Shown here in pieces: positions 11,375 to 63,988 of a stretch of DNA of 64,000 nucleotides. The notes under the pieces are model-generated. The model searched no databases, was not told the DNA's origin, and saw only the letters and a program-made list of their open reading frames with translations. How positions within the stretch are numbered: the stretch's first letter is position 1; the number at the start of each line of letters is the position of its first letter. The translations under genes and the position numbers were made by a program. Source of the stretch: a virus. Location of the stretch: the IMG/VR virus record IMGVR_UViG_3300042731_005935, positions 19,164 to 83,163 of that record. The stretch is one strand, 5' to 3'.

Positions 11375-11415
11375 GAGATAACCTAATATTATATGCGAAA
11401 GTGTAGGTAAACAAA

Positions 11416-11625: not shown

Positions 11626-11626
11626 T

Positions 11627-11839: not shown

Positions 11840-11853
11840 GGATAAATGAACCT

Positions 11854-12123: not shown

Positions 12124-12139
12124 TCAGGAAGGCAGCACT

Positions 12140-12364: not shown

Positions 12365-12460
12365 TTTTACCCCCGCATAAATAATATTTCAAAAGAATAG
12401 GAGGTGAAAAAAAAGTAAAATTGGTGGCAGAAAACAATTACTTTGAAAAGGAGAAAAATA

Positions 12461-12853
12461 ATGCTTCAACAATTTACCATGTTTGTGGTTAACGCCTTGC
12501 TGTCCGTTTTGACACCTGAAAAGGTACGTGGATTCCTTCAATCCGGTATTGCCAAAATCAAGGAGTATGTCAGATCGACGCCAACCGATATTGATAATTC
12601 CCTTGTTATTCCGGCTTGCAATCTGGTGCTTGCTGCCCTTGAAATTCCCGGCCCAGACGGACAGATTGACATTAATGGAGAACTCAGAAAATTGTTTGAC
12701 GCTCTGGGTGATCTGAAAACAATTTTTCTTGATGCTGGCCTGGATTATATTGAAGATAGGGTGATTGCCTCGGAGAACAAAGTTGACAATGCACTTATCC
12801 TGCCGGCGTGCAGTTTGGTACGTACCGTTCTCCGCGTACCCGATAATGATTAA
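12461..12853 (+). CDS. Protein with internal duplication, unknown function
   Basis: A 130-residue protein preceded by AAAGGAG. Two copies of a motif are visible: DNSLVIPACNLVLAALEIPG (~residues 43-62) and DNALILPACSLVRTVLRVPD near the C-terminus, each after a helix-rich stretch. An N-terminal hydrophobic helix (MFVVNALLSVLTPEKV) may be membrane-associated. No family name can be given. Confidence 0.6.
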   Translation: MLQQFTMFVVNALLSVLTPEKVRGFLQSGIAKIKEYVRSTPTDIDNSLVIPACNLVLAALEIPGPDGQIDINGELRKLFDALGDLKTIFLDAGLDYIEDRVIASENKVDNALILPACSLVRTVLRVPDND

Positions 12854-12879
12854 CTAAAATGGCAAAAGGAGGGACTCTA

Positions 12880-13269
12880 ATGTTTCAAAGAAAACAATTC
12901 ATAATGCTCCTGGTAATGTTTATTACCATGGTATTTCTCTTTGGCTGTCCAATGATGCCAACTGGAGCGAAATCGGTTTCCCAGATGACACCGAAAGAAA
13001 AAGTCACCTGGATGTATGGAGTCTACAATTCGCAGTATGCGGATTATCAATCGATGACTGGACATATCTGGGACGATACATCAGAGACATGGAAGAAGAC
13101 TTCTTCTCCAACTTTGTCGGAAGATCAAAAGGAAATTCTGCGGAAACGCAAAGAAATCCTTACCAGGGTATATCCAATTATTAAATTATATGATTCTATG
13201 TTGAACAGCGGTGCTGTGCCGGACAGGGAGACCGAGCAAAAGATCATTGATCTTTTGAACGGATTGTAA
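12880..13269 (+). CDS. Putative lipoprotein
   Basis: A 129-residue protein with a lipoprotein signal: positive start (MFQRKQF), hydrophobic core (MLLVMFITMVFLFG), then a lipobox-like LFGC. The mature part is hydrophilic. Start 12880 is supported by AAAGGAGGG ending about 7 bases upstream; an upstream ATG at 12859 precedes that ribosome site. A spanin or envelope-active role is possible because it follows membrane protein genes, but nothing proves it. Confidence 0.65.
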   Translation: MFQRKQFIMLLVMFITMVFLFGCPMMPTGAKSVSQMTPKEKVTWMYGVYNSQYADYQSMTGHIWDDTSETWKKTSSPTLSEDQKEILRKRKEILTRVYPIIKLYDSMLNSGAVPDRETEQKIIDLLNGL

Positions 13270-13286
13270 CTGATATAATCCGTTCC
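13258..13286 (+). other. Inverted repeat over the lipoprotein stop codon
   Basis: GAACGGATT and AATCCGTTC flank a short loop across the stop codon of the lipoprotein gene. It could end or stabilise the tail transcript. A TATAAT hexamer lies shortly after, near 13306. Confidence 0.4.
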
Positions 13287-13346
13287 AAAACCTTGTAAAA
13301 TATAGTATAATGGAAGTATAACTTTAGAAGCAAAGGAGATCGAACC

Positions 13347-13514
13347 ATGGCCGATCCGGCACTTGTTGTAATTGAAGGAGGCAAATTAATCCTGCAAGCG
13401 TATCTTAATTATATGCGGCAGGCGGGCAAGACGGAGGAAGAGGCTGAGGCACTCTACCGATCGGAAAAATCCCAGTTTGATTTCAATAAGCCGTCCAGCC
13501 TGGAAGACGTCTAA
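13347..13514 (+). CDS. Small acidic protein, unknown function
   Basis: A 55-residue protein beginning MADPALVVIEGGKLIL, with an AAAGGAG ribosome site 8 bases upstream and a clear stop, followed by a stable GC hairpin. Helical, rich in Glu and Ala. Codon use and ribosome site support a real gene. No family known. Confidence 0.6.
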   Translation: MADPALVVIEGGKLILQAYLNYMRQAGKTEEEAEALYRSEKSQFDFNKPSSLEDV

Positions 13515-13535
13515 ACCCCCACACACCCATCGAAT

Positions 13536-13555
13536 GCCCCGGGTTCGCCCGGGGC
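13536..13555 (+). terminator. GC-rich hairpin, probable transcription end of the tail operon
   Basis: Perfect 8-bp stem GCCCCGGG / CCCGGGGC with a TTCG tetraloop. No T-run follows directly, so intrinsic termination is uncertain; it may also protect the 3' end. The rest of the gap to 13672 is AT-rich and shows no gene. Confidence 0.5.
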
Positions 13556-13672
13556 AACTAAGGAATAAATTATAAAAAATCAAGATAACCAATTAATATA
13601 TCCACCTAATCTTTTAAATATCCATAATTGCTCCGCTTGGCGGAAAGTAAATGGAGAAAAGAGGAGTAGAAA

Positions 13673-15163
13673 ATGAAAAAGAAAGATAAAAGAACCATTG
13701 GCATTTTCACGAATTTTCAAGAGTTTAATCCTGGTTATAGCCTAACCGGCATTGTTGTTGATCAATCATTAATGCTCCTGGAAAACGGACATGATGTTCA
13801 TGTGTTCGTCAATGAAACCTTCAATTCGAAATACAATCAGGACGCAAGAATCTCCTACCTAATGAATAAATTCAGAGGGAAATTTCATTTACATAAAGCG
13901 ACCAAGTTTATGCATTTGATTGATTATGAAACAAAATCCACCCTTACGGAAGACCACAAAAAAGCCCTAATCGATGCTGCAAAGATCTTTACAGATAGCA
14001 TTTTAAAATTTGACATTGATCGGATTTATACCCACGATTTTATTTTTACTGGATGGAATCTTCCGTATGCTCTTGCAATAAAAGAAGCAAGCAGACTTCT
14101 ATCCATAGCTGGCAAACAAGTTTATTGGCTCCATTGGATCCATAGTGTGCCAGGATCCCATCGGAGAGATTGGTGGGATATTAATCAGTATGGGGATAAT
14201 CATCTGATTGTATTTCCAAATAATATTGAAATTAATCGGATATGTGAAACATTTATGACAAATCCGTCAAGGGTCCGTATGATTCCACACATTAAAGATA
14301 TCCGTACATGGTACGATTTTTCTGATGAATCGTGGGAATTCACAAAACGGTATCCTCAGATAATGGAAGCAAATGTGGTCCAAGTTTATCCTATCTCAAC
14401 CGACCGCATGTCAGCAAAGCAATTACAATTGGTGATCAAAATATTTGGTTATATGAAACAAGCCAAAGTTCCTGTTTTCCTGTGTGCTGCAAATCAATGG
14501 GCTACCGGTCGCCGGCGCAAGGAAGATGTTAATAAATACATCCTTCTTGCGGAACATTGTGGTCTTGAATATGGTAAGGAATTTGTCTTTACTTCTGAAT
14601 ATTCATATGATCCAGTACTTAATGATATTATCGAAAGCTCGGAGAATTTCGAGGAATTAGATCAAAGATTACCGAAATGCGAATCTTCCGGAGATGAAAA
14701 AGATGATACATATGGGCAATTCCTAAAAGGTATTAAATGGGATGGTGATTTTGCGGAAGAAAAAGTCCGACTTCTGCAACTCTCCCAACCATATGCTACA
14801 GGTATCAGCCGCCGGATGCTTCGCGAACTTCAACTCCTATCTAATTTATTTATTTTTCCAACCCGTGAGGAGAGTTTTGGATTGGTTGGGCCAGAGGCAG
14901 CATTTTCAGGTGCCTTATGTATTATTAATCGAAGCTTAATTATGCAGTTTGAGGTTATGGGTTCAAATGCTCCGGCGTTTGACTTTGGTTCACACTATAA
15001 TAATACTCCAAGTATTAATGATGAAAAATATATCCGTGGAGTCTCCTTTGCGATTCTAAATCGGATTTATTCTAATGAGGCGATCACGACCAAAATCCAT
15101 TGTCGCCGGCGATACAACATGAACTCGATTTATAACCGGTATTATGTTCCCAATGCAATATAA
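13673..15163 (+). CDS. Glycosyltransferase, GT-B fold (GT4-like)
   Basis: A 496-residue enzyme. The N-terminal half starts with a Rossmann strand and a glycine-containing turn (GIFTNFQEFNPGYSLTG). The C-terminal half has PTREESFGLVGPEAAFSG (~residues 399-416), the EX7E-like nucleotide-sugar site of GT4-type retaining transferases. It opens a cassette of sugar-modifying genes that runs to 20.5 kb. Likely transfers a sugar to a phage component or a growing glycan; acceptor and donor unknown. GAGGAG lies upstream. Confidence 0.75.
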   Translation: MKKKDKRTIGIFTNFQEFNPGYSLTGIVVDQSLMLLENGHDVHVFVNETFNSKYNQDARISYLMNKFRGKFHLHKATKFMHLIDYETKSTLTEDHKKALIDAAKIFTDSILKFDIDRIYTHDFIFTGWNLPYALAIKEASRLLSIAGKQVYWLHWIHSVPGSHRRDWWDINQYGDNHLIVFPNNIEINRICETFMTNPSRVRMIPHIKDIRTWYDFSDESWEFTKRYPQIMEANVVQVYPISTDRMSAKQLQLVIKIFGYMKQAKVPVFLCAANQWATGRRRKEDVNKYILLAEHCGLEYGKEFVFTSEYSYDPVLNDIIESSENFEELDQRLPKCESSGDEKDDTYGQFLKGIKWDGDFAEEKVRLLQLSQPYATGISRRMLRELQLLSNLFIFPTREESFGLVGPEAAFSGALCIINRSLIMQFEVMGSNAPAFDFGSHYNNTPSINDEKYIRGVSFAILNRIYSNEAITTKIHCRRRYNMNSIYNRYYVPNAI

Positions 15164-15172
15164 GTGGGCGCC

Positions 15173-15847
15173 ATGCATATTGCTATTATACCAACAATGG
15201 AGATGGATCGTTGTCTCGATCTTGTTTACTCTATAAATAAAGGGAAAATTAAACCAAGCAGAATTATTATTATCAATAATTCTGGTTCTGTTTACACTAA
15301 GGATTTATCTTTATATAATACTATTGTATGTAATTATTCTAAAAATATTGGTGTAAATGCAGCATGGAACATTGGTTTAAAACTTGCCAAAGAGCAGTCC
15401 TCGCATTTATCTATATTAAATGATGATATTCTAATCAAAGAAGACTTTTTCAAAAGGATCAATCTCCTTCTTTCCATTAGATTATTACTCGATGTTCCTG
15501 TCTTTTGCCCATCTACAACTCATGATAAAACTTTATTTGATCGGTCGGAAGTAAATAATCATACAAGCCGGACTCATTATATGAGGAAGAAAGAAGGTTG
15601 GGCTTTTACAATCCGAGACCGGTTTGTTAAAATGATCAAACCGATTCCAGAGGAATTATTTGTTTTCTGTGGAGATGATTGGATTTGGAATGAAACGGTT
15701 AAGTATGGTACGATGTGGGTAAAAGATGAAAGAAATATTATCTACCATACGGTTGGAGCAACTTTAAAAAATAACCCCAAACTCCGTGCTTTATTGAAGC
15801 ATGAGAAAAGGATATTTCATGGGAAGGGTAAGTCTTGGAAGGCATAG
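15173..15847 (+). CDS. Glycosyltransferase, GT-A fold (GT2-like)
   Basis: A 224-residue protein with GT-A features: IIINNSGS after the first strand, NIGVNAAWNIGL in the nucleotide-binding region, and ILNDDI near residue 78, the metal-binding acidic motif. The ATG at 15173 is used; a GTG at 15164 is the alternative. Its 3' end overlaps the start region of the acetyltransferase gene. Acceptor unknown. Confidence 0.65.
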   Translation: MHIAIIPTMEMDRCLDLVYSINKGKIKPSRIIIINNSGSVYTKDLSLYNTIVCNYSKNIGVNAAWNIGLKLAKEQSSHLSILNDDILIKEDFFKRINLLLSIRLLLDVPVFCPSTTHDKTLFDRSEVNNHTSRTHYMRKKEGWAFTIRDRFVKMIKPIPEELFVFCGDDWIWNETVKYGTMWVKDERNIIYHTVGATLKNNPKLRALLKHEKRIFHGKGKSWKA

Positions 15848-16331
15848 TTATGGAGATATTAAAGTAATTGGACAACGTTGCCATGTCTATGTTGGTAACT
15901 TTTGCTCTATTGCTGACCATGTTAAGGTGATTGTCCTCGGGCATGATCCAAACAATGTTTCCACATATCCTTTTAATAAGAAAAACTGGCAAAGGGCCGC
16001 CGATTCAAAAACGCATCCGGTTGTTTACGGAGATGTCCATATCGGGAATGATGTTTGGATCGGTTACAATGTAACGATAATGGGTGGAGTAAAGATTTGT
16101 GATGGAGCAGTGATTGCTGCCGAATCAGTTGTAACGAAAAATATTGAACCTTATACAATTAATTATGGTGTTCCAACCAGAGTAAAACGTTTAAGATTTA
16201 CTCCATCAATTGTTTATAAATTATTAAATATAAAATGGTGGGAGTGGCCGGATGAAAAGATCGCCGAAAACGCTCATTTGCTTTGCAGTAAAAACATTGA
16301 TGAATTCATAAGACTTCACGGGAGGAAGTAA
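15819..16331 (+). CDS. Hexapeptide-repeat acetyltransferase (CatB/XAT-like)
   Basis: A 170-residue left-handed beta-helix acyltransferase. Its repeats of [LIV]-G-x4 (VYVGNFCSIADHV, VHIGNDVWIGYNV, VKICDGAVIAAESVV) are followed by the family's GVPTRVKRLRF end. It resembles xenobiotic/sugar O-acetyltransferases using acetyl-CoA. Start 15819 is preferred because AAAAGGA lies 6 bases upstream. Within a glycosyltransferase cassette it probably acetylates a sugar residue. Confidence 0.8.
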   Translation: MGRVSLGRHSYGDIKVIGQRCHVYVGNFCSIADHVKVIVLGHDPNNVSTYPFNKKNWQRAADSKTHPVVYGDVHIGNDVWIGYNVTIMGGVKICDGAVIAAESVVTKNIEPYTINYGVPTRVKRLRFTPSIVYKLLNIKWWEWPDEKIAENAHLLCSKNIDEFIRLHGRK

Positions 16332-16332
16332 A

Positions 16333-16905
16333 ATGGCAATCAAGACACCGAGGGAATATCGGCAGATGGAATTCAGGCAATTACTTTTCGAATTGGTATG
16401 CCTGCTCAAACCACATACTTATGTGGAGATTGGAGTAAAAGACGGGTGGACATTCAATAAGATTGCTCCACTTGTTGAACGCGCCGTTGGTGTGGATATT
16501 GTAGCGTCTCCAGTAGAAAGACTTCCACATGTTGAATTTATCCATGATAATTCTGCCAGGTTTGCAAAAACATGGAAGGATCCAATCGATTTCCTTTTTA
16601 TTGATGCATACCACGAATGTGAAGGAGTCTTACTTGATTTCTACCGTTTGCATCCTTTCGTTCGGCCAGAAACCGGAATGATTTTTCTCCATGATACATA
16701 TCCTGTGAAACCGGAATTACTTCTTCCAGGTTATTGTCACAATGCATGGAGAGCGGCAAAGACGATCCGGGAGAAGTTTGTTGAAGAATTTGAAATTGTT
16801 ACACTCCCCGGTCCGTGGGCAGGCCTCTCAATACTTCGGAAATTGAAAGATGGCAGGCACGGGTGGATGGACAAAGATGCCTTCGCTGGAGGGAGAGGAA
16901 GATGA
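16333..16905 (+). CDS. Class I SAM-dependent methyltransferase
   Basis: A 190-residue methyltransferase of the small O-methyltransferase type. Motif I is VEIGVKDGWTFNKIAP (~residues 36-51), the acidic strand-2 end is GVDIV, and the active-site strand is IDFLFIDAYHECEGVLLD, where D-x-H is typical for metal-assisted sugar or catechol O-methylation. It lies between glycosyltransferase genes and overlaps the next start (ATGA), so sugar methylation is likely. Confidence 0.7.
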   Translation: MAIKTPREYRQMEFRQLLFELVCLLKPHTYVEIGVKDGWTFNKIAPLVERAVGVDIVASPVERLPHVEFIHDNSARFAKTWKDPIDFLFIDAYHECEGVLLDFYRLHPFVRPETGMIFLHDTYPVKPELLLPGYCHNAWRAAKTIREKFVEEFEIVTLPGPWAGLSILRKLKDGRHGWMDKDAFAGGRGR

Positions 16906-18044
16906 CTAAATTACTTTTTCTTTTTATGAGCCAAGGGGCAGCATCTCCTGGAACGACTAAACGGGTGTATCCAACAAATGATTGTGGAACAAAATATATG
17001 GATGCATTTGCAGGAGAAGGCTATTTCAAGATGCTGGATGTACTCCTCAAAAATAAAGTGATTGATGACTTGAAGATTTTCTTTGAGTCGAATGTCCAGC
17101 CCGGCATAGCGTCCTGGGTGAAGGGCCCTTCAACATATTGCGAAGTAATTCCGGAGATTCGTTTTGTTGAGGAGTATATTGAGGAGGACACAATCATCTT
17201 TGTCCGCGGCGGGTTTAAACACTGGCATGATTTACTTTTGAAATACAAAAATAAAAATTGGCTTTTACTTTATGGTGCAAATACCGGAAGAGAAAGATGG
17301 ACATGGTGGGATATTATTTTTGATGATATCTTGTGTAAAAATGAAATTGATCGGCATGGAAGATATTGGTTTCCTTTTATCAAACCAATAAATGAGGAGA
17401 TGTTTTTTCCGGAAGATACGATACGGCAGCAACCAATTCCTCAATGGGACTTTTGCATCGGAGCATCTCATATTCATGACAGGAAAGGACAATGGAGAAT
17501 TTTTAACGCTATACTGGAATATAATAAAAAATATGGAGAACTTCATACGATTATGCCTGGCGGACCGCGACGTGGATTGAAAACGCTTGAGATGATTAAA
17601 AATCTTCCGAATGCAAAGTATGTAGAAACGCCCGGTCATGTTCATCGAACCGAACTTCAGAGAATTTTTAATGATTCAAAATATTTTATCCACTTTGGTG
17701 CTCATGGACAAAATGACCGCGGTCCGATTGAGGCACTTGCATGTGGGACACCTGTAGTAATTGGTTCTCCGAGTTATCATGCACCATTCTTATCTGATAT
17801 ATGTTACACGGGTTGCAATATTAATGATCCGGTTTCGATAGCAGAGAGTTTGAAGATATTACTTGAACGCTGGACAATTGAGGAGAAAAGTAAAACATAT
17901 TGGAAATATAAGAAGAAAAGTGGATTCAATGAAATAATTATTCCAAGGATGATAATGCTATTTTCTCTCATAAAACACATGAAACCAACAATAAAGGCAA
18001 AACAACTTATAATGGAGGAGGTAATGAATCATGCGATCAGTTAG
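16902..18044 (+). CDS. Glycosyltransferase, GT-B fold (GT4-like)
   Basis: A 380-residue enzyme starting at an ATG that overlaps the previous stop. The C-terminal half has HRTELQRIFNDSKYFIHFG, then GPIEALACGTPVVIGSPSYH (~residues 277-297), the usual acidic motif and glycine turn of GT4 transferases. The N-terminal domain is less conserved. Part of the same cassette; donor and acceptor are unknown. Confidence 0.7.
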   Translation: MTKLLFLFMSQGAASPGTTKRVYPTNDCGTKYMDAFAGEGYFKMLDVLLKNKVIDDLKIFFESNVQPGIASWVKGPSTYCEVIPEIRFVEEYIEEDTIIFVRGGFKHWHDLLLKYKNKNWLLLYGANTGRERWTWWDIIFDDILCKNEIDRHGRYWFPFIKPINEEMFFPEDTIRQQPIPQWDFCIGASHIHDRKGQWRIFNAILEYNKKYGELHTIMPGGPRRGLKTLEMIKNLPNAKYVETPGHVHRTELQRIFNDSKYFIHFGAHGQNDRGPIEALACGTPVVIGSPSYHAPFLSDICYTGCNINDPVSIAESLKILLERWTIEEKSKTYWKYKKKSGFNEIIIPRMIMLFSLIKHMKPTIKAKQLIMEEVMNHAIS

Positions 18045-46955: not shown

Positions 46956-47031
46956 GTCATAAGCAAGGATATTTCGCCGGACAATTATTTGAAGTACTTT
47001 TGGCGATATGTTTTTTCATATATTCCACGAT

Positions 47032-47064
47032 AAAAAAGGGCGTGGGATAAACACCCACGCCCTT
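47032..47064 (-). terminator. Intrinsic terminator
   Basis: On the minus strand: GGGCGTGGG stem, TGTTTAT loop, CCCACGCCC, then TTTTTT. A textbook rho-independent terminator downstream of the repeat protein gene, separating it from the clamp operon. Confidence 0.85.
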
Positions 47065-47109
47065 CGGTTTTGAGGATTTAATTTGTTCTTACTTCAGGGC
47101 GCTGCCGAT

Positions 47110-48249
47110 CTAATCGTCGTCGGACGCGATGGAGACTTTTCCATCAGACAGATCACCGGAGTTTTTATACAGGATATTGATGGCACAAGATTTGGCAATA
47201 GATTTGGCGATGGTGCGAACGGCCATGTTGATGCATTTGTCGGCGTCTTTTTTCTTCTCTTTGCCGATCAGTTTGGCAATATCCATGATGGACATTTCAC
47301 TTTTCTGGAGTTTTTCATAGATCTTGGCCGGTAGTGAGTCTTTCCGCATTCCTTTCGGAAGTTTCCCACTTTTGTCTTTATCGGCCGCCTTGCCCTTGCC
47401 TTTACCACCTTTATTGGCTTTATTGGATTTGGTGGATTCGGCCTTCTCTTCCATGGCGTCCAGGATTTCCTCGATGGCATCTTCGGACTCATCCTCCCAA
47501 TCTTTTTTCTTGGGGAGGTCTACTTCAAGACCATTTTCTTTCACGAAGGCCTTGACCTCTTTATACTCCATGTCGCCGAGTTCTTCTTCCAGGGTGTCGC
47601 GGTCGAATTTGCCACCGGCATCGCCGGCATCACCCGATTTGGCCTTCTCTTCCATGGCGTCCAGGATTTCTTCGATGATGTCTTCGGATTCATCTTCCCA
47701 GGCCTTTTTCTTGGGCATATCGATGTCAAGGCCGTTGTCTTTGATATAGGCCTTAACCTCTTTATACTCCATGTCGGTCAGCGTTTCTTCCAGTTCATCC
47801 CGGTCGAAATCGCCGGCGGCGCTCTTGGCATCTTTCGTACCACCCTTGGCATTGCCGCTCTTGGATGACAGTTTCATGATTTCATCGATAACTTTGGAGA
47901 GATTTTTCTTGGTCACTTTGGTCTTGATTTCAAGATCATTTTCTTTGATGTAGGCTCTGACCTCCTTGATTTCCATGTCTTCCAGCTCATCACGGAGGTC
48001 ATCGCCGCCGGCTTCGCCTTTAGATTCGCCGTCGAATTGATCCATGACGCGGACATAAAATTTGATAATCTTTTTGTCCACTTCATCAGTCTTGCCATCG
48101 TCATCAATTTCTTCCATGGCGTTCATGAAATCCTCGGCGAGTTCTTCCGAATCATCGGTATCGGTATCGACCGACTCGTCGGTCAGTTCCAACTTGTTCA
48201 ACGCCTTTGCATTTTTCTTTAATTCTTCCAATGTGACTTTTTTTGCCAT
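47110..48249 (-). CDS. Acidic protein with three SAP/HeH-like repeats
   Basis: A 379-residue protein with three ~55-residue repeats (centred ~95, ~165, ~235): 'DMEYKEVKAYIKDNGLDID' then an acidic helix ending 'EEILDAMEE', as in HeH/SAP-type helical modules. The C-terminal domain (MSIMDIAKLIGKEKK...) looks helix-turn-helix-like. The same module recurs in the acidic tail of the SSB (34384-35559). It may bind DNA or proteins at the replisome. Monocistronic: a promoter lies upstream and a terminator downstream. Confidence 0.6.
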   Translation of the reverse strand: MAKKVTLEELKKNAKALNKLELTDESVDTDTDDSEELAEDFMNAMEEIDDDGKTDEVDKKIIKFYVRVMDQFDGESKGEAGGDDLRDELEDMEIKEVRAYIKENDLEIKTKVTKKNLSKVIDEIMKLSSKSGNAKGGTKDAKSAAGDFDRDELEETLTDMEYKEVKAYIKDNGLDIDMPKKKAWEDESEDIIEEILDAMEEKAKSGDAGDAGGKFDRDTLEEELGDMEYKEVKAFVKENGLEVDLPKKKDWEDESEDAIEEILDAMEEKAESTKSNKANKGGKGKGKAADKDKSGKLPKGMRKDSLPAKIYEKLQKSEMSIMDIAKLIGKEKKKDADKCINMAVRTIAKSIAKSCAINILYKNSGDLSDGKVSIASDDD

Positions 48250-56145: not shown

Positions 56146-57015
56146 TTAGATATCAAGTCTCCGTTTCAGTTCCAAATTTGGAACATTCTGGATCCGATCG
56201 ATAATCTTTCCCAACTTGCTACCCAACTTTATTCTCACCTGCTCATTATCTTTGAGCACCTCGGTGGAAGTTTTTTTCATTTCACGACGAAGGGAATTGA
56301 TAATATTTTTGAACTTTATCTGATCGACATGACCCTCCCACAAGTCTTCCCATTTTGTGATAAAGTTCTCCACGCTTTGAACGGTCGCAGCATTAATCGA
56401 GCCGCTTTCACACTGGGTTTCCAATGTTTTAACTCGCTTGTACAGGAGATTTCCGATCATATTAATGGTCATCTCTTCCATTTGGGACACCATATTTCGA
56501 AATTTTTCTGCCTCTTTCTTATATAGGGAAGGTGGCAGAACACCGCTGTCCTTATCAGGAATATCAAATTGGAAAAAGTTCCAGTAAAAATAGAACTTGC
56601 TCCGAAGTCCTTGCTTTGATGGATATTTTTGACTCTTGTAATATGCGGGATACCGTTTTCGGAATTCCCTTTTCAAAGCAGAGTAGCGGGACACAAGTTC
56701 CTCAGTCTTCGAATCATACTCCGCTCTGATTTCATTGAACAGGTCGTCCAATTCAGTAATTTTATGCTTTGGAACAAAGAAGACATTATCCACTGGGAAT
56801 GGCATCGAATTCATGAGCAAAGCATATTTGGCGCGCCGTCTCAAGTGCGCCAGATCATTTAAAATTGATCTATCGTGGATCAAATCTTGGCTTGCTTTCA
56901 TGATTTCCCTCGGAACTTTGTCGCCGAATTCATCTGGATTCAGTTTTGTGGAAGCGTTCCATCTACCCATCTTTAAGGAGCAGAGTACTCCTTCCTTTAA
57001 TCTGTCTTGATCCAT
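56146..57015 (-). CDS. DUF3150-like protein
   Basis: A 289-residue helical protein with the DUF3150 layout: CSLKMGRWNASTKLNPDEFG (~12-31), a mid region LMNSMPFPVDNVFFVPKHKI (the 'pF...G..fvP' landmark), FNEIRAEYDSKTEELVSRY, and WNFFQFDIP. DUF3150 proteins accompany AAA ATPases in phages and bacteria and are thought to be their partners; an AAA protein is encoded two genes upstream. Both end in KRRLDI. Confidence 0.6.
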   Translation of the reverse strand: MDQDRLKEGVLCSLKMGRWNASTKLNPDEFGDKVPREIMKASQDLIHDRSILNDLAHLRRRAKYALLMNSMPFPVDNVFFVPKHKITELDDLFNEIRAEYDSKTEELVSRYSALKREFRKRYPAYYKSQKYPSKQGLRSKFYFYWNFFQFDIPDKDSGVLPPSLYKKEAEKFRNMVSQMEEMTINMIGNLLYKRVKTLETQCESGSINAATVQSVENFITKWEDLWEGHVDQIKFKNIINSLRREMKKTSTEVLKDNEQVRIKLGSKLGKIIDRIQNVPNLELKRRLDI

Positions 57016-57045
57016 TTTGTATCTCCTCTTCTAAAAGTTACTATC

Positions 57046-57085
57046 ATCTGGCAGGGTCGGCGTATACGCCGACCCTTTACCAGAT
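57046..57085 (-). other. Strong palindromic hairpin after the LPRRR-protein stop
   Basis: 22-base palindrome GGGTCGGCGTA/TACGCCGACCC, with outer ATCTGG/CCAGAT arms and an internal loop. No T-run, so more likely an RNA processing or 3'-protection element than a simple terminator. Confidence 0.7.
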
Positions 57086-58365
57086 TATTCCGTCGGATTT
57101 GCATCTGTTTTTGGAATGAAGTAAATATCATCAAATTCATTTTTCATCTGGATGATTTGGATAATCACTCCGACGCGGCGTGTGAGAACGCGAATGGTGC
57201 TGGCAAACTTGCTTTTAGCACGTTTATCATCCATGCCATGTTCTTTCTTGAGGAGTTCAAGTAAAGTGGCCTTCCGGATGGGTTTCTCCTTGATTGCATT
57301 TGCAATCGAATAGATAGGAGTTCCAGCACGTTTGCCGAATAGTGTCTCCGTTTTCTTTCTTCGTCTGGGTAATGTGGCGGATGCAGATTCTTCCTTGTCT
57401 CTCTTCTGGCGCCGCCGGGGCAGTTTCGTTGTTGCTTCTTTTTTGTCCTTTTTCTTGCGCCGCTTTGGTAACCTTGTCAACGTCTTTTTCGGCTCGGGTT
57501 TGTCTTCCGATTTCTTTTCGTCTTTTTCATCGGCCGCTTGTTTTTGCTTTTTCTTGTCTGCCTCTTTCTGCAGTGATTCGGGATAATCACATCCGGCGAG
57601 TTTATGGGCCTGACCGAAGGCTAATCGCGCTTTACTCAAGAATTCTTGAGACGGGAGTGCCTTGCCGTCCCAGGATTCTTTGATATTGTTGAGTAAGAGA
57701 AGCGCTTGGGATACCACTTCATGCTTGACACCATCAAAAAATATCCGATCGCCAGCAACATGCTTGATTCGATACGTGAAATTAGCTTTCATCTCTGCCA
57801 TAAACTGACCCTTGATCGATGAAAGCATATTGGCGAGCATCAACAATTGATTTTTGTCGGGCTCTTCTTTGTTCTCCGTAGCCGCCGGGTCATTCAATGG
57901 TAACTCCGGCTTTTCTTCTTTCGTTTCTTTTATTGGCTTGCTGTCTTTTTTCTTCCCGGCTGGGGCTGATTTCGGTTTTTTCTTTTTCGTCACTTCTTTT
58001 TTTGGAGTCTGCTTTTTCTTCTTTGCCGCTGCCTCTTTTTTTATATCTTTGTGAGTAGCGCCGGCCGCTTTCTCCGCGTCTGAATGATCCGAAGGGTTGA
58101 TCTTGCCAGCCGCTTCTTTCTTCGGCTGTTCAACTTCAATCCCTTCCTTTGCGGAAATTCCGGCTGCTTGAATCAGGCCTTTATAGACGGCACCACGCAT
58201 ACATTTTTTGCATGAAACATTATTCACCGTCTTGTCATCTTCCGGAAGCATTTCTCTTTTCCGGTCGCACAAGGTGAAAACGTCATCCACGATAATGTGG
58301 ACAACTTTACCGTCGCCTTTAGCGTAACCGCTGACCTGACCTGTTTCTTGTTTCTTGTCTGTCAT
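57085..58365 (-). CDS. Low-complexity linker protein with LPRRR motifs
   Basis: A 426-residue protein. The N-terminus has CDRKREM and SCKKC (possible zinc). A long Lys/Ala/Glu-rich linker (~85-165) precedes a small domain (~170-275). A second linker holds three LP[RK]RR motifs (RLPKRRKKK, KLPRRRQKR, TLPRRRKK), and a C-terminal winged-helix-like region (ATLLELLKKEHGMDD) follows. It looks like a flexible scaffold of the AAA/DUF3150 module. Confidence 0.5.
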   Translation of the reverse strand: MTDKKQETGQVSGYAKGDGKVVHIIVDDVFTLCDRKREMLPEDDKTVNNVSCKKCMRGAVYKGLIQAAGISAKEGIEVEQPKKEAAGKINPSDHSDAEKAAGATHKDIKKEAAAKKKKQTPKKEVTKKKKPKSAPAGKKKDSKPIKETKEEKPELPLNDPAATENKEEPDKNQLLMLANMLSSIKGQFMAEMKANFTYRIKHVAGDRIFFDGVKHEVVSQALLLLNNIKESWDGKALPSQEFLSKARLAFGQAHKLAGCDYPESLQKEADKKKQKQAADEKDEKKSEDKPEPKKTLTRLPKRRKKKDKKEATTKLPRRRQKRDKEESASATLPRRRKKTETLFGKRAGTPIYSIANAIKEKPIRKATLLELLKKEHGMDDKRAKSKFASTIRVLTRRVGVIIQIIQMKNEFDDIYFIPKTDANPTE

Positions 58366-58378
58366 GATGTTCCTCCTT

Positions 58379-58428
58379 ATCTAATTTGAATGAATAAAAC
58401 TTAATCTAATTTGAACGAATGAAATCTA
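58379..58428. repeat. Tandem 25-bp direct repeat
   Basis: Two adjacent copies (58379-58403 and 58404-58428) of ATCTAATTTGAA-GAAT-AAA with 21 of 25 bases equal, just upstream of the ribosome site of the LPRRR-protein gene. Possible operator. Confidence 0.7.
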
Positions 58429-58638
58429 AAAAATTGGAATGATATACTCCGGATAAAATTGAACTTCATCCTTTTTAATCTTCTTCTTTTTTACCTCCCT
58501 TCTAACTGAAAGTCGATGGTGTTTTGATATCAGTGATACCTCACCAAAATCAATTTGTTTCACAAGCACCGTATGGGTATTTATTTTAATGACCATTCCG
58601 GTTTTTCTTCCAGTAGACGTTTTGAAAGTCGCAAACAC
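58426..58638 (-). CDS. Small basic beta protein (GTG start)
   Basis: A 70-residue protein from a GTG after AAAGGAGGG (MFATFKTSTGRKTGMVIKIN...). Strand-rich with VKQIDFGEVSLISKHHRLSV, reminiscent of small SH3/KOW-like folds, and a Lys-rich loop. Unknown function; lies in the AAA operon. Confidence 0.5.
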   Translation of the reverse strand: MFATFKTSTGRKTGMVIKINTHTVLVKQIDFGEVSLISKHHRLSVRREVKKKKIKKDEVQFYPEYIIPIF

Positions 58639-58649
58639 GATGCCCTCCT

Positions 58650-60047
58650 TTAATTGATATCAAGTCTTCGTTTAACAACTTCTTCCGCGTTTTTATCTGC
58701 GGGGACACACCTTACTTTTGCCCAGTCACGTAAAGCGTTTATTTCCTGTGACATTGTTTGGGCAATTGGGATAATGAACTGCTTTGACTCTTCGAGGGAA
58801 CATTTTTTCATTCTTGACACGTTGACCAATGCTTCGATTTCAGCACCGGAGAAGTTGCTCATTTCCGGTACACCCTTTGCTTTGATCTTGTGTTTCTTGG
58901 CGTAGAATTGGAGGATGGTCTTCCGTGTTTCATCTCCAGGCAGATCAATATAAAAAGGAGAAGTATCCCAGCGACCAGGCCGGAGATACTCAGGCGGGAT
59001 GCCAATGAAACTGTTTGCAGTTCCGGCAATGTAGACACCTTCAGGGCGGTTTTGAAGAAAATCTAACCATTTGCTTAGTGCTCTTTTGCTTGTACCGTGA
59101 TCGCCATCTCCGCTTCCACCAGCCCCAGCAAATTGCTTTTCAAATTCATCAATTAAGACAAAGCAATCACCAATTGCAGTGATGATGGAAATAACCATAT
59201 CGACATTTTTATCGGTATCACCGATGAACTTGGAGAAAAGTTTTCCCATATCCACAATGAGACCGAACTTTCCAGTTTCGCCGACGATTGCTTCAGCAAG
59301 AGAAGTCTTTCCGCAGCCTGGAGGGCCGACGAATAAAACTCCTTTTGCTGTTGGGTCTTCGATTGTATCAAGTATGAAGTTTTTAACAGCATCATACCCA
59401 ACAACATCGGAGAAATTTCTGTTTGCTGGAATAACTCTCAAGAAACCAGTTTTGGAAAGCGCCTGTGCCTTATATGCGTTAATTGTTTCGGTGTCAATCT
59501 TTTTGTTCCGAATCAGCGACAAGGAGAAAACACTCTCTAATTCCTTGCGTGTCAACCCCTTCGAAAACCGGACGATTTTCTCCAAGTCTTCATCTGTTGG
59601 CATGAATTTTTCTTCCGGAACAATGTGATTGATAGTAGAAACAATTGCTTCCCTACCTGGTAACTCCATTTCCATAACAAGGATATCCTTGTCAAGTTCT
59701 GCTGGGATTTCGATTTTGTGGGAGACAATCACGAAACACTTGCCGGCCGCAGCCCATAGTGGGAAAGCATTTTTGATTGCTTGAATTGGCTGCGGCTTTC
59801 CAATGAACCAGTGATAATTGAAGGCGAACATGACCGAATTGTCATCTCCTTCAATTAGTTTTTTGATCGGTTCCATTGGATCGGGAGATTGAATTAAATC
59901 CCAGTAATGTGTGGAGAAGTTGATTCGATCATAAGACTTGATCATCGGCTCAATTTCTCTTTGCACCCGTTCTGGCTCGTCAGTCTTTAACCAGATTACT
60001 GGGAAACCAGCCCGAAGATAATCAACCATTTCTGTGTGGTGAATCAT
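58650..60047 (-). CDS. Ycf46-like AAA ATPase
   Basis: A 465-residue AAA protein. N-terminal domain typical of Ycf46 (LRAGFPVIWLKTDEPERVQ, then MELPGREAI). Walker A FVGPPGCGKTSLAEAI (~236-251), Walker B CFVLIDEFEKQFAG (~292-305), HGTSKRALSKWLDFLQN, YIAGTANSFIGIPPEYLRPG with Arg fingers, and FYIDLPG. It matches cyanobacterial/plastid Ycf46. It neighbours Ycf35 and DUF2997 genes, its partners in cyanobacteria. Ends in KRRLDIN. Probably remodels a protein complex; target unknown. Confidence 0.75.
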   Translation of the reverse strand: MIHHTEMVDYLRAGFPVIWLKTDEPERVQREIEPMIKSYDRINFSTHYWDLIQSPDPMEPIKKLIEGDDNSVMFAFNYHWFIGKPQPIQAIKNAFPLWAAAGKCFVIVSHKIEIPAELDKDILVMEMELPGREAIVSTINHIVPEEKFMPTDEDLEKIVRFSKGLTRKELESVFSLSLIRNKKIDTETINAYKAQALSKTGFLRVIPANRNFSDVVGYDAVKNFILDTIEDPTAKGVLFVGPPGCGKTSLAEAIVGETGKFGLIVDMGKLFSKFIGDTDKNVDMVISIITAIGDCFVLIDEFEKQFAGAGGSGDGDHGTSKRALSKWLDFLQNRPEGVYIAGTANSFIGIPPEYLRPGRWDTSPFYIDLPGDETRKTILQFYAKKHKIKAKGVPEMSNFSGAEIEALVNVSRMKKCSLEESKQFIIPIAQTMSQEINALRDWAKVRCVPADKNAEEVVKRRLDIN

Positions 60048-60080
60048 AATACTACCTCCTTTAATAATGTGTTATTGTTC

Positions 60081-60144
60081 TGGCTACCATCGTCAGGTCA
60101 TACCCACCACAGTATGACGACGGGTCAAAAGACCCGTTTCGGTA
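60081..60144 (-). ncRNA. Hammerhead ribozyme copy 1 (type II order)
   Basis: Minus strand: stem II side ACC, GAA, stem III ACGGGUC/GACCCGU with UUUU loop, C at the cleavage position (plus 60119), stem I GUCAUAC/GUAUGAC, CUGACGA, then GGUAGCCA. Lies between Ycf35 and the AAA gene. Confidence 0.8.
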
Positions 60145-60154
60145 TTATTCTCCC

Positions 60155-60529
60155 TTAATATATGGTTAACTTCATTTGGATATCGCCGTTTTGCTGTTCG
60201 ATTGTGATATTATCCCAAAGCGTGGTATCGATGTTTTGCTTCACCACCTCCATGTTGTAATCTTGGAGCAGATCGCCAAATTGATCCATGCTGCCTGTTT
60301 GACTTCCGAAATTATCATAATGGATTCGTCCTTCTTCGTCGATGATTAAAGGATACCTCCATTTGGATAACTCGATCTTGGCGACGCCTGAATGGGTCTG
60401 GTCGCGGTAGAATTCTCCGGTCACCTTGCCGTTTGCAACTTGCGTGAAAGTAATTCCTTTTCCAAGGCAAACTTTCTTTAGGGAATTCAGATCGGTGATT
60501 TTGTGTTTGAAAATGGATATGTGGCTCAT
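60155..60529 (-). CDS. Ycf35/DUF1257-like protein
   Basis: A 124-residue protein matching DUF1257 (Ycf35): MSHISIFKHKITDLNSLKKV start, VTGEFYRDQTHSGVAKIEL, YPLIIDEEGRIHYDNFG, and QDYNMEVVKQN. In cyanobacteria and plastids Ycf35 is a conserved protein of uncertain role, often next to Ycf46 and DUF2997. Here the three are in one operon, so it is probably an AAA partner or adaptor. Confidence 0.7.
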   Translation of the reverse strand: MSHISIFKHKITDLNSLKKVCLGKGITFTQVANGKVTGEFYRDQTHSGVAKIELSKWRYPLIIDEEGRIHYDNFGSQTGSMDQFGDLLQDYNMEVVKQNIDTTLWDNITIEQQNGDIQMKLTIY

Positions 60530-60981
60530 GCTTTACTCCTTTTCCTCATAATGAATTGATCCCCAGAAACACCTGGATGGAATTGAGTCGGCCAGTGGCA
60601 AACAAGTTCGAAGCCATGCTTTTCTTCAAATTCTTGGATTATGGAAAGTAAATCCTTTGACTTGATTTTAAACTTTTTCGAGAAGTCAATTGGCATCGAC
60701 CATGTTCCGTTGCCGTCTGCAATTCCCCCTTGAACATCTCCCATATTGATATGGAAGCATAACATGGTGATTTTATTTTTTGCCATCTTTACCCCTTTTT
60801 TTGTTATTGGTTCAACCCATGTTTCAAGCGGGAAGTGGCAACGTTCACCACCAAGTCCTTCTCTTCGGAGTAGTTTGAGGACTTCTTCCGCTTGTTCCTT
60901 GGTATCATGTTTATCGGTTGTCATATCATTATAGAATCCGTGACATGGATCCCATTTAGCACATGATTTCCAATTTTTCAT
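60526..60981 (-). CDS. Unknown protein in the Ycf46 operon
   Basis: A 151-residue protein from ATG 60981 after AGGAGG (MKNWKSCAKWDPCHGFYNDM...). The first ~60 residues form a Cys/His/Trp-rich module (HDTKEQAEEVLKLLRREGLG, GERCHFPLETWVE); a second alpha/beta part follows. A longer reading lacks a good start. No family known. Confidence 0.55.
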   Translation of the reverse strand: MKNWKSCAKWDPCHGFYNDMTTDKHDTKEQAEEVLKLLRREGLGGERCHFPLETWVEPITKKGVKMAKNKITMLCFHINMGDVQGGIADGNGTWSMPIDFSKKFKIKSKDLLSIIQEFEEKHGFELVCHWPTQFHPGVSGDQFIMRKRSKA

Positions 60982-60991
60982 AGAACACCTC

Positions 60992-61204
60992 CTATCCGCA
61001 CCAGCCAGAGGGAAGACCGTCAGTTCCGCAGATGATCTGCTTTTCTTCTTCCTCATAGTAAGAGGGTTTGAGGTTGTGTTCCTCGGGTTCGCCAAAGATC
61101 CGTTTCAGGAAAGCAGTTTTCTCCAGACACTCACTACCTTTAAATCCGGTTGCTTCTGCTTTCACCGAGCCATCCTTTCCAAACGTAATAACTACCTGTC
61201 TCAT
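60992..61204 (-). CDS. DUF2997-like small protein
   Basis: A 70-residue protein: MRQVVITFGKDGSVKAEATG, FKGSECLEKTAFLKRIFGEP, then SYYEEEEK. This is the DUF2997 pattern ('i...dG.v..e..G..G.sC...t..le..lG'), a family found beside ycf35/ycf46 in cyanobacteria. The conserved Cys suggests modification or metal binding. Part of the AAA module. Confidence 0.65.
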   Translation of the reverse strand: MRQVVITFGKDGSVKAEATGFKGSECLEKTAFLKRIFGEPEEHNLKPSYYEEEEKQIICGTDGLPSGWCG

Positions 61205-61230
61205 GTTTTTTCTCCTTTCGTGTTAAGTTT

Positions 61231-61295
61231 CTGGCTCCATCGTCAGGGTATGACCACCACGTCATACCGACCGGGAAGTATTTCCCGGTTTCGGT
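61231..61295 (-). ncRNA. Hammerhead ribozyme copy 2
   Basis: GAA then stem III ACCGGGAA/UUCCCGGU (AUAC loop), C at the cleavage site (plus 61269), stem I GGUAUGAC/GUCAUACC with GUGGUG loop, CUGACGA, GGAGCCA. Stems differ from copy 1 but pair perfectly. Confidence 0.8.
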
Positions 61296-61304
61296 TGAGT
61301 TCTC

Positions 61305-61505
61305 CTAAAGTTTTGCCGTGAGGTGCTCTGCGGCTTTCATGATAGCAGGACAAACCCAGTACAGAAATCCAAATCCGAATATACCAAGAATAGCAGAAAT
61401 AACAATAGGTGTTAAACTTCTTCTCCTGTTAGCACTTACAAATCCGCAAAGGACGCATAAAGCGGCAAAAAAATATGCCAGCATATAAAACGTTCCGATG
61501 CTCAT
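61305..61505 (-). CDS. Small membrane protein
   Basis: A 66-residue protein with two hydrophobic segments (MLAYFFAALCVLCGFV; VISAILGIFGFGFLYWV) around a basic NRRR loop. GGAGAGGA upstream. Unknown function. Confidence 0.55.
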   Translation of the reverse strand: MSIGTFYMLAYFFAALCVLCGFVSANRRRSLTPIVISAILGIFGFGFLYWVCPAIMKAAEHLTAKL

Positions 61506-61515
61506 TTCCTCTCCT

Positions 61516-61794
61516 TTATTTAATGTTGAAATAATCAGTTATTGCCAAAGTGCCCAAAATATCTCCTTCAATATTGTTTTCTTCTCTGATATTATATTGG
61601 AAACAGATCATATAACGTCCGTCCTCTAATTCTATTCCGGTGCAACAATCCGTCCAACATTTTTCACTGCCGCAATATTCAATTAAATGGGCGTTTCCAT
61701 TATGTCTTTCGATTGCTCTTTGAAGAAGTTGGTGGACCGCATTGGTCAATTTCTCCTCATCAAAATTTTCTGGAAGTATCATATGTTTAAACAT
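61516..61794 (-). CDS. Unknown small protein
   Basis: A 92-residue protein (MFKHMILPENFDEEKLT..., then CGSEKCWTDCCTGIE) with clustered Cys. AGGAGA precedes. It lies between two ribozyme copies, so its message would be processed out. No family known. Confidence 0.5.
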   Translation of the reverse strand: MFKHMILPENFDEEKLTNAVHQLLQRAIERHNGNAHLIEYCGSEKCWTDCCTGIELEDGRYMICFQYNIREENNIEGDILGTLAITDYFNIK

Positions 61795-61822
61795 GTCTTC
61801 TCCTCTTGTTTTTTCATTCTAA

Positions 61823-61890
61823 GTGGCTACCTTCGTCAGGTCGTGGTCACCAACCACGACGACCGTGGAGAAGTATTCCACGGTTTCGGC
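61823..61890 (-). ncRNA. Hammerhead ribozyme copy 3
   Basis: GAA, stem III ACCGUGGA/UCCACGGU, C (plus 61861), stem I GUCGUGGU/ACCACGAC with UGGUG loop, CUGACGA, AGGUAGCCA. Nearly identical to copy 5, with a different stem III loop. Confidence 0.8.
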
Positions 61891-61891
61891 T

Positions 61892-62437
61892 TCATAAATC
61901 TTTAATTATTTTAAAATTATCAATTAAATTTAGATAATCCTTCAGATGCTTCGGATTGTTTTTATGGGTATTTTTGACTTGCTTCTCAAAACTCTTCAAT
62001 GTTCCGTGAAAGCAACCGGTAATTATTTGTATATCATCACCAATCCAGTAAAAGGTTACTTGGTCATTCCTACTGCCAATTGGTTTGCTGACATATCGTT
62101 GCGGATTTGATTTAAATAATGTACAACTATAGCAACTATAGCAACTACAGCAACCATAGCAATCATGGCAACCATAGCAATCATGGCAATTATGGCAATT
62201 ACAGCAACCATAGCAATCATAGCAATCATGGCAATCATAGCAATTATGGCAACCATGGCAATCATGGCAACCATGGCAATTACAGCAACCATAGCAATCA
62301 TGGCAATTATGGCAATTATGGCAATCATGGCAATCAGCTAACGAGTTTGAATATATTATTGCCATTGCCTCTGTAGTAGTTTTTGCATTCCAGGAATTGT
62401 TACTGTCATCAATCCATCTTTCGTTTAATTTCTTCAT
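61892..62437 (-). CDS. Cysteine-triplet repeat protein
   Basis: A 181-residue protein. After a short N-terminus, ~75 residues repeat C-x-x (mostly CHN, CHD, CYG, CYD) without a break, ~24 copies. A compact domain follows (PIGSRNDQVTFYWIG, GCFHGTLKSFEKQVKNTH). The period-3 pattern could form a metal-rich or beta-helical rod; the C-terminal domain resembles one seen with other short-repeat proteins in phages. Likely cytoplasmic. Function unknown. Confidence 0.65.
   Translation of the reverse strand: MKKLNERWIDDSNNSWNAKTTTEAMAIIYSNSLADCHDCHNCHNCHDCYGCCNCHGCHDCHGCHNCYDCHDCYDCYGCCNCHNCHDCYGCHDCYGCCSCYSCYSCTLFKSNPQRYVSKPIGSRNDQVTFYWIGDDIQIITGCFHGTLKSFEKQVKNTHKNNPKHLKDYLNLIDNFKIIKDL
62119..62340. 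repeat. 9-bp tandem repeats in the Cys-triplet gene
   Basis: Periodic GCAAYCATG/AGCAATTAT-like units in 9-base steps (three codons each) encode the C-x-x triplets. The tract is prone to length change. Confidence 0.85.
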
Positions 62438-62462
62438 TTCATTCTCCTTTAATATGTGTTAT

Positions 62463-62530
62463 TGGCTATCATCATCAGGAGTAAGGCACCACCCTTACTC
62501 GACCGGGAATTACTTCCCGGTTTCGACTTC
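62463..62530 (-). ncRNA. Hammerhead ribozyme copy 4
   Basis: UC-GAA, stem III ACCGGGAA/UUCCCGGU, C (plus 62501), stem I GAGUAAGG/CCUUACUC with GUGGUG loop, CUGAUGA, GAUAGCCA. Here the stem II pair is UC/GA instead of CC/GG. Confidence 0.8.
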
Positions 62531-62732
62531 ATTGCAATTTGCTCAAGTTGACCGTGATTACCTTTTCTTCTTTAGGGGAGTACCATTGTGAATTACCTGA
62601 CACCCATTGGGTTGAATAGCAATAATGGCCACGGTTTGTATCCACAAGATGTTTTGCTGCCCGATTAATATTTTCTTCGTATTCATCCCTCGGATTCGAA
62701 TATCTTTCGAGCATTTTGGTTGCCGTTTTCAT
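62529..62732 (-). CDS. Unknown small protein
   Basis: A 67-residue protein (MKTATKMLERYSNPRDEYEE..., C-terminal EEKVITVNLSKLQ) with GGAGAAAAAT upstream. Helix then beta. No family. Confidence 0.5.
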   Translation of the reverse strand: MKTATKMLERYSNPRDEYEENINRAAKHLVDTNRGHYCYSTQWVSGNSQWYSPKEEKVITVNLSKLQ

Positions 62733-62977
62733 TATTTTTCTCCTTCCAGAACTCGTTTCCAGTTTTTGTAGAAATCCATTGCCGCGTCAGCATTCTTGAA
62801 TTGGAGATAGATAGCATTTTTAATGGTTGGTACTCTATCCCACCTATCCAATTCTTTGTATTTCTTTTTTATACTTTTGAATGTTTCTACGGCTACACTG
62901 AAACCAACTTCTGAATCGAAATAAACTAAAAGTATTTTTGTTTTCTTCATGTAAAAATCAACATACTTTGCTTTCAT
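62732..62977 (-). CDS. Unknown small protein
   Basis: An 81-residue alpha/beta protein (MKAKYVDFYMKKTKILLVYF..., AIYLQFKNADAAMDFYKNWK). The pattern of strands and helices could be a small ferredoxin-like fold. AAAGGAG lies upstream. Overlaps the next gene by one base. Confidence 0.5.
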   Translation of the reverse strand: MKAKYVDFYMKKTKILLVYFDSEVGFSVAVETFKSIKKKYKELDRWDRVPTIKNAIYLQFKNADAAMDFYKNWKRVLEGEK

Positions 62978-63005
62978 TTCGTTCTCCTTTTTAATTGTAT
63001 TGTTC

Positions 63006-63072
63006 TGGCTACCATCGTCAGGTCGTGGTCACCAACCACGACGACCGTGGAGTAATACTCCACGGTTTCGGC
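63006..63072 (-). ncRNA. Hammerhead ribozyme copy 5
   Basis: GCC-GAA, stem III ACCGUGGAG/CUCCACGGU with UAUUA loop, C (plus 63043), stem I GUCGUGGU/ACCACGAC with UGGUG loop, CUGACGA, GGUAGCCA. Confidence 0.85.
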
Positions 63073-63504
63073 TTATTCGCAGTATGGAAGTGGATCTGCT
63101 TCGTAAGTAATCGTTCCGCATTTTTTACAATATTCGATTGGTTCACCGGCAAATCCGTTTGATTCTCTTAATTTATGAGAACCACAATTTGGACATTTTA
63201 CTCCGGCCGCTTTCAACCGTTTATCAATGATATACTCTCGATGCATATCCATAAACAGTTTAATTGGGTTATGTCCAAAACGAATATTGATTTTCCATAT
63301 GTAGATATGGAGACTAGTATAAGGATCTTTCCAACTGCCGGAGAATCCGATCCGAAACAATTTAAGATCTTGCCAAGAATGGGCGTTTCCATATCTCCAC
63401 ACCTCAACAAGAGTTCTGCCGTTATGTTGAAGTAACTTTGCCATTTGGATATGAGGAATTCTCCATTTTATCCACAGGTAAATTCTTTTTACTTTTTCTT
63501 TCAT
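63073..63504 (-). CDS. Unknown protein with C-terminal zinc ribbon
   Basis: A 143-residue protein, basic and Trp/His-rich at the N-terminus (IYLWIKWRIPHIQM), with a C-terminal CPNCGSHKLRE...YCKKCGT zinc ribbon (~103-130). AAAGGAG upstream. Unknown function. Confidence 0.55.
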   Translation of the reverse strand: MKEKVKRIYLWIKWRIPHIQMAKLLQHNGRTLVEVWRYGNAHSWQDLKLFRIGFSGSWKDPYTSLHIYIWKINIRFGHNPIKLFMDMHREYIIDKRLKAAGVKCPNCGSHKLRESNGFAGEPIEYCKKCGTITYEADPLPYCE

Positions 63505-63529
63505 GTCTTTTCTCCTTTTTAATGTTATT

Positions 63530-63597
63530 GGCTATCATCGTCAGTACCATGGCACCACCCACAGTAGACGGGCCCCCCGCAGGCCCGTTTCGAATTA
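63530..63597 (-). ncRNA. Hammerhead ribozyme copy 6
   Basis: UC-GAA, stem III ACGGGCC/GGCCCGU, C (plus 63567), stem I UACUGUGG/CCAUGGUA (two G-U pairs) with GUGGUG loop, CUGACGA, GAUAGCCA. The UC/GA stem II pair matches copy 4. Confidence 0.8.
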
Positions 63598-63787: not shown

Positions 63788-63988
63788 TTAAACAAATCCC
63801 TCAAGTTCAGCCACGAACTCTTCCGGAGTCATCCCACACTCAAAACTTTCATGGGCGTTCATGGGTTGGATGCTATCGTTATAGGGGTCGATGTTGGCAC
63901 CAATAAGTTGCTGAACCCTTTTCCACCATTTTCCAAAGTCTCTATAATACAACTCCGCATCATTGAAAATCTGTTTAAATAATTTCAT
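63788..63988 (-). CDS. Unknown small protein at the window edge
   Basis: A 66-residue acidic helical protein (MKLFKQIFNDAELYYRDFGK..., ending TPEEFVAELEGFV), with AGGAGAAAAACA upstream. Complete in the window. No family recognised. Confidence 0.55.
   Translation of the reverse strand: MKLFKQIFNDAELYYRDFGKWWKRVQQLIGANIDPYNDSIQPMNAHESFECGMTPEEFVAELEGFV

Follow-up and report, generated by a model that had tools for sequence, protein, structure and literature searches.

An array of type II hammerhead ribozymes between the early genes of a tailed phage, and other structured elements at the same junctions in its relatives

Hammerhead ribozymes of types I to III in prophages were described by Perreault et al. 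(2011; PMC3088659) as clustered, in the available part of that paper, around single genes or short gene blocks. The type II forms there have a 2-bp stem II and a pseudoknot between loop I and the 3' tail; three tandem arrangements were cleaved in vitro, a triple cluster self-cleaved in E. coli, and a role in the processing of long transcripts was proposed. The purpose of hammerheads in bacteria and phages is a question that has stood since 2011. Here we describe IMG/VR virus record IMGVR_UViG_3300042731_005935, of 83,163 bases, in which bases 19164-83163, the 64,000-nucleotide stretch referred to below as the window, carry six type II hammerheads between genes of one early operon. To judge from the sequences, each of them probably cuts the early transcript between genes, which would yield gene-sized mRNAs. 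The record contains genes for a terminase, portal, tape measure, DNA polymerase and DnaB-like helicase and is thus from a tailed phage, for which no DNA match to cultured phages was found.

The window was scanned against all 4227 Rfam families. The six elements match RF02276 (Hammerhead_II) with 41.6-54.8 bits (E-values from 1.5e-8 to 4.3e-5, calculated for the full window against the 4227 families), above the gathering score of 37 bits, and no other family reaches its gathering score within the window. The six elements are:

60078..60144, minus strand: type II hammerhead, final copy of the array, 54.8 bits, predicted cut after C60119, with the AAA+ gene immediately downstream
61229..61296, minus strand: type II hammerhead, 51.9 bits, predicted cut after C61269
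61821..61891, minus strand: type II hammerhead, 41.6 bits, predicted cut after C61861, extra nucleotide after A9 is an A
62460..62528, minus strand: type II hammerhead with CUGAUGA core, 46.8 bits, predicted cut after C62501
63003..63073, minus strand: type II hammerhead, 44.9 bits, predicted cut after C63043
63526..63595, minus strand: type II hammerhead, 52.9 bits, predicted cut after C63567, two genome copies further upstream

These are the intergenic sites named in the original prediction, which was made from the letters of the window, and its expectation of a covariance-model match on this strand is borne out for all six. The cleavage sites, computed independently as C17, coincide to the base with the six it gave. 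Its stem lengths, 7-9 bp for stem III and 7-8 bp for stem I, are corrected to 7-10 and 8-9 bp in the window copies, and its count of six is right for the window but not for the genome, which has eight. The two additional copies are at the other end of the contig, also on the minus strand (L009:16-82, i.e. G000:C1:16-82, and L009:287-365), and all eight score above 37 bits across the full model. When the contig ends are joined, a hammerhead is followed by a leader of the usual length, AGGAG and ATG, as in the remaining copies. Therefore, the contig is most likely a circularly permuted complete genome, and the eight hammerheads most likely follow one another in a single series, which occupies the promoter-proximal end of the early operon.

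All copies share one layout. The stop codon of the upstream gene, if there is one, lies 0-11 nt off, followed by 2-3 nt of stem II, GAAA, the stem III hairpin and C17. Then come the stem I hairpin with a UGGU loop, CUGANGA, an extra U or A, the second strand of stem II and an AGCCA tail (AGCUA in one copy), and finally a short leader with a Shine-Dalgarno sequence and the ATG. Across the eight genome copies stem III has 6-10 bp, stem I 8-9 bp and stem II 2-3 bp; stem I of the copy at 61821..61891 is identical to that of the copy at 63003. The CUGANGA ... GAAA core, the A15.1-U16.1 pair and H17 are present in all eight. The element extends from the upstream stop codon toward the next gene and stops about 20-30 nt short of its start codon, in front of the Shine-Dalgarno sequence, and junctions in the window are 90-107 nt long with a hammerhead versus -4 to 28 nt without one, using open reading frames (ORFs) called with a simple script. 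The copies sit between operon genes, as the original prediction had said in calling them gene separators.

Relatives were found with the AAA+ gene behind the last hammerhead, a query that is independent of the ribozyme. All six first relatives (48-50% identity) carry hammerhead arrays, and two of them, G003 and G004, look like one virus. By structural parsing there are 11 copies in G002, 8 in G004, 7 in G005 and 15 in G006, while G098, added by a search with the DUF3150 gene, has 11 Rfam hammerhead matches and 13 junctions by eye. In total, seven related phages have arrays of 7-15 hammerheads. No hammerhead was found in the distant AAA+ carriers Aeromonas HJ05, Rhodobacter RcKickapoo and Mycobacterium Shida. 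An unrelated GC-rich virus contig, G035 (L143, G035:C1:7500-20500), contains 24 type II hammerheads in 7.6 kb (contig 9932-17520), mostly a single copy for each small gene. Their stem II overlaps the stop codon, and the following ATG lies about 10 nt further on. A search with the 334-aa protein of G035 found only that protein itself among viral contigs and nothing among cultured phages. The background count was made with a strict DNA pattern for the hammerhead, since a looser one had yielded many chance contigs. Among the matches listed, 47 other hammerhead-bearing IMG/VR contigs have one copy (27 contigs), two (19) or three (one), in a sample, not a census, obtained with a pattern that favours consensus-type copies.

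Both the core and the placement are conserved over 80 parsed copies. CUGANGA is found in 78, C17 in 77, and H17 and A15.1-U16.1 in all 80, where the parse itself demanded GAAA, the A-U pair and H17. Outside ORFs lie 78 of the 80, in regions that are 72-87% coding, and the other two overlap an ORF called in G035 which lacks a ribosome-binding site and is probably not a real gene. A stop codon is found at most 15 nt from the beginning of 64 copies, and a start codon at most 40 nt away from 71.

The stems covary. As the original prediction had noted, several differ between copies and stay paired: in the eight genome copies 104/104 scored cells of stems I and III are paired versus 63% in shuffles, and 10 of 13 positions are double-changed. 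Among 73 distinct copies of seven phages, 99% of the cells are paired versus 54% in shuffles, and 12 of 13 positions are double-changed, with a slight bias toward pairing from the parse, which needed at least 4 pairs per stem (the eight genome copies were taken from Rfam instead). A pseudoknot between loop I and the 3' tail is formed by UGGU/GCCA in this phage and by GGUU/AACC, UGAC/GUCA, UUUAGC/GCUAAA and UUGAUU/AAUCAA in relatives. Its score over all copies is 718.5, against 618 +/- 15 in shuffles, and within G006 alone it is 180 against 132 +/- 9; in neither case did any of 1000 shuffles equal it. This is a stronger test than the stems, since the parse made no use of the pseudoknot. Covariance model, core identity, covariation and pseudoknot thus agree on a type II hammerhead with stem II open, the class originally proposed.

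From the conserved sequence, structure and placement we infer cleavage in the cell, protection of the RNA ends and an effect on expression. The early operon transcript would cleave itself into gene-sized mRNAs. Each upstream fragment would have the stem III hairpin at its 3' end, where C17 would carry a 2',3'-cyclic phosphate, and each downstream fragment would start with a 5'-OH followed by the stem I hairpin; the loop of the latter could stay paired with the AGCCA tail. Both ends might then resist exonucleases and enzymes that require a 5' phosphate. We propose that each gene thereby gets its own mRNA lifetime, and that gene blocks can be reordered without breaking expression because each block carries its own cut site.

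Three observations weigh against this. First, the downstream remainder of the early operon has no hammerhead junctions. Second, all eight genome copies have one extra, non-canonical nucleotide between A9 and stem II (U in seven, A in one). It is likewise extra relative to the RF02276 consensus in most G002 copies (U in 8/11, A in 1/11) and almost missing in the other phages. An additional nucleotide after A9 is a variation tolerated in the hammerhead class and not among the class-defining residues. De la Pena and Flores reportedly described in 2001 that the hammerhead of chrysanthemum chlorotic mottle viroid naturally has an extra A there, and that an extra U speeds cleavage by a viroid-derived hammerhead, with C or G being harmful. 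Third, some copies in relatives have damaged cores, CCGANGA in G004 and G006 and UUGAUAAG in L284; these copies are possibly decaying or slow. The altered sequences are located in L142 (CCGAUGA, G006:2050-2127), L140 (CCGAUGA, oriented 6927) and L284:809-967 (UUGAUAAG).

The order of the conserved genes also differs between the phages, namely c0 (124-aa protein), c1 (AAA+), c2 (DUF3150), c3 (DUF2997) and c4 (426-aa protein). Adjacencies are kept in 38 of 44 comparisons without an intervening hammerhead versus 22 of 62 with one, the comparisons being mutually dependent and the gene orders entered by hand; between c3 and c0 there is never a hammerhead. The copies of G001 combine two stem III sequences with two stem I sequences in each of the four possible ways, suggesting that copies have recombined within the ribozyme, and in G004 six copies are identical over stems I and III. 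All this would also be expected of a spreading repeat or recombination site, whose homologous copies allow gain, loss and reordering of small genes, with cleavage being incidental. We consider this improbable, as a mere repeat needs neither compensatory changes in stems and pseudoknot among dissimilar copies nor a fixed placement from stop codon to Shine-Dalgarno sequence, and G005, G006 and G035 retain the core although the majority of their copies are dissimilar.

A profile search revealed four more relatives, L253-L256 (AAA+ 41-51% identical), in which no hammerhead was found by Rfam nor by a looser scan. Their operon junctions are occupied by other repeated, covarying hairpin elements, at nearly every junction of the early operon:

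L256:4032-13657: repeated structured intergenic elements, 18 copies of one kind
L254:320-7950: repeated structured intergenic elements, 11 copies of a second kind and two of the L256 kind
L255:3634-12739: repeated structured intergenic elements, about 11 copies
L253:2340-13500: repeated structured intergenic elements, about 11 copies

Structure is strong in all four sets (mean z -4.9 to -7.3), and the elements have no gathering-score match and no repeated weak match in Rfam. The L254 kind is a 24-pair rod with strong covariation (14 double-changed pairs; none of 500 shuffles did as well), and its alternative 3' hairpin covaries likewise. At least L254-L256 share a common plan of a 5' strand a, a hairpin, a strand b, a short loop and a strand c, in which b can pair with either a or c. 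The core pattern of L256 was also sought elsewhere in IMG/VR; the two matches inspected are in protein-coding-like sequence, no match scored with the model of the element, and they are put down to chance.

The junction itself is conserved. All 11 distinct phages whose sequence covers the junction upstream of the AAA+ gene have an element there, a hammerhead in seven and another element in four. In the tree of the AAA+ and DUF3150 proteins the hammerhead-less L253 is sister to the hammerhead-bearing G005 (support 100/98), inside the hammerhead group; therefore at least two switches of element are needed. On this tree the junction element has been replaced at least twice with its position retained. 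That four relatives have other structured elements at the same junctions argues for selection on the function of the junction, and the non-hammerhead hairpins probably do the same job as the hammerheads. The function appears to be conserved while the chemistry is swapped.

How the replacement elements act can be suggested from their structure. A cut between the hairpin and b would leave the hairpin upstream and place the b:c hairpin at the new 5' end. The rods of L254-L256 are sized like RNase III substrates, for which an irregular intergenic duplex of about 20 bp or more is expected, and RNase III sites are the reading we favour for them; an undescribed ribozyme is possible. A search of 11 virus records found no RNase III gene, hence the enzyme would have to come from the host. 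More broadly, we regard as a tentative and rather doubtful idea that the elements of L253-L256 are one or more undescribed self-cleaving ribozymes in the role of the hammerhead, with the b:c hairpin sitting on the 5' end created by the cut. On the coding (minus) strand no intrinsic terminator was found within the array. The shared hairpin outcome, the conserved positions and this lack of terminator-like sites support intercistronic processing, and the best reading of the sequences is that cleavage would give mRNAs capped by hairpins at both ends, with hammerheads in some phages and another element elsewhere.

Because relatives have other hairpins at these places, a hairpin by itself may suffice, and the hammerheads could then be plain hairpins at mRNA ends, or spacers against translational coupling, that no longer cleave. 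A few copies do have broken cores; however, the non-pairing residues of the catalytic core are kept in 78/80 copies while the stems are freely rewritten, which makes this quite improbable. It is more improbable still that gene-length RNAs freed by neighbouring hammerheads are circularised into circular mRNAs by the ribozymes or a host RtcB-type ligase: units of about 0.3-1.2 kb do lie between successive copies and hammerhead ends (5'-OH and 2',3'-cyclic phosphate) are RtcB substrates, but no RtcB or RNA-ligase gene was found in eight virus records searched, some of them fragmentary, and the available part of PMC3088659 reports that circular or spliced products were sought and none found.

The genes around and between the hammerheads are:

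58650..60047, minus strand: AAA+ ATPase gene, 465 aa (c1), Pfam AAA 71 bits
60155..60529, minus strand: 124-aa protein, family-conserved (cluster c0)
60992..61204, minus strand: DUF2997 protein, 70 aa (cluster c3), 43.4 bits
61305..61505, minus strand: 66-aa ORF between hammerheads
61516..61794, minus strand: 92-aa ORF between hammerheads
61892..62437, minus strand: 181-aa protein with Cys-X-X repeat, between hammerheads
62529..62732, minus strand: 67-aa ORF between hammerheads
62732..62977, minus strand: 81-aa ORF between hammerheads
63073..63504, minus strand: 143-aa protein, possible zinc ribbon, between hammerheads
63788..63988, minus strand: 66-aa ORF; the junction ahead spans the contig end and contains the hammerhead L009:16-82

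The AAA+ ATPase, the 426-aa protein and the DUF3150 protein (56146-60047) form a module conserved across the phage family. The 181-aa protein has a run of Cys-X-X tripeptides (DCHNCHNCHDCYGC...), with a 9-nt tandem repeat at 62129-62336 in its gene, and perhaps binds metal. The array genes were considered as defence genes and rejected, as PADLOC gave no match save a weak similarity of the AAA+ protein to the anti-phage ATPase IetA. Sub-threshold Rfam matches in the window (Termite-leu and others) are outside the hammerhead finding; the Termite-leu match at 47011-47069, on the early strand downstream of the array, resembles an intrinsic terminator hairpin with a U run. A 201-base tandem repeat (47435-47808; 1.9 copies, 79% alike) lies within the minus-strand ORF 47110-48249.

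The purpose of hammerheads becomes testable here, with sister phages that have a hammerhead or another element at the same junctions. The replacement elements are concrete candidate RNAs for new ribozymes or processing sites, and the arrays offer a natural design for self-processing, rearrangeable operons.

In the early region of T7, RNase III processing sites cut a long early transcript between genes. The proposed intergenic cuts of a long early transcript, and the substrate-sized rods of L254-L256, resemble this; unlike RNase III sites, the window elements are hammerheads and independent of an enzyme. Similarly, plant retrozymes (PMC4918200), which are non-autonomous, have repeated DNA-borne hammerheads that cut transcripts into units. 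However, those are type III in non-coding 600-1000-nt units of a retroelement, while the present ones are type II and bound units that consist of protein-coding phage operon genes; signs of a retroelement were not noticed.

Another close system is that of PMC3088659, with which this locus shares several same-strand hammerheads flanking phage operon genes. Type II hammerheads, their pseudoknot and prophage clusters with proposed mRNA processing are already known from the available part of that paper, so the arrangement is less unusual than originally thought, and it is the number of copies per operon that stands out. For arrays this large, or for replacement by other elements, no report was found in the open-licence literature. 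New here are the array size, the strong covariation of stems and pseudoknot, the reordering at hammerheads and the replacement by other elements. Compared with the small clusters, up to triple, in the available text of PMC3088659, there are eight hammerheads in this operon, 7-15 in relatives and 24 on one contig, and here the position is retained while the ribozyme sequence or the type of element changes.

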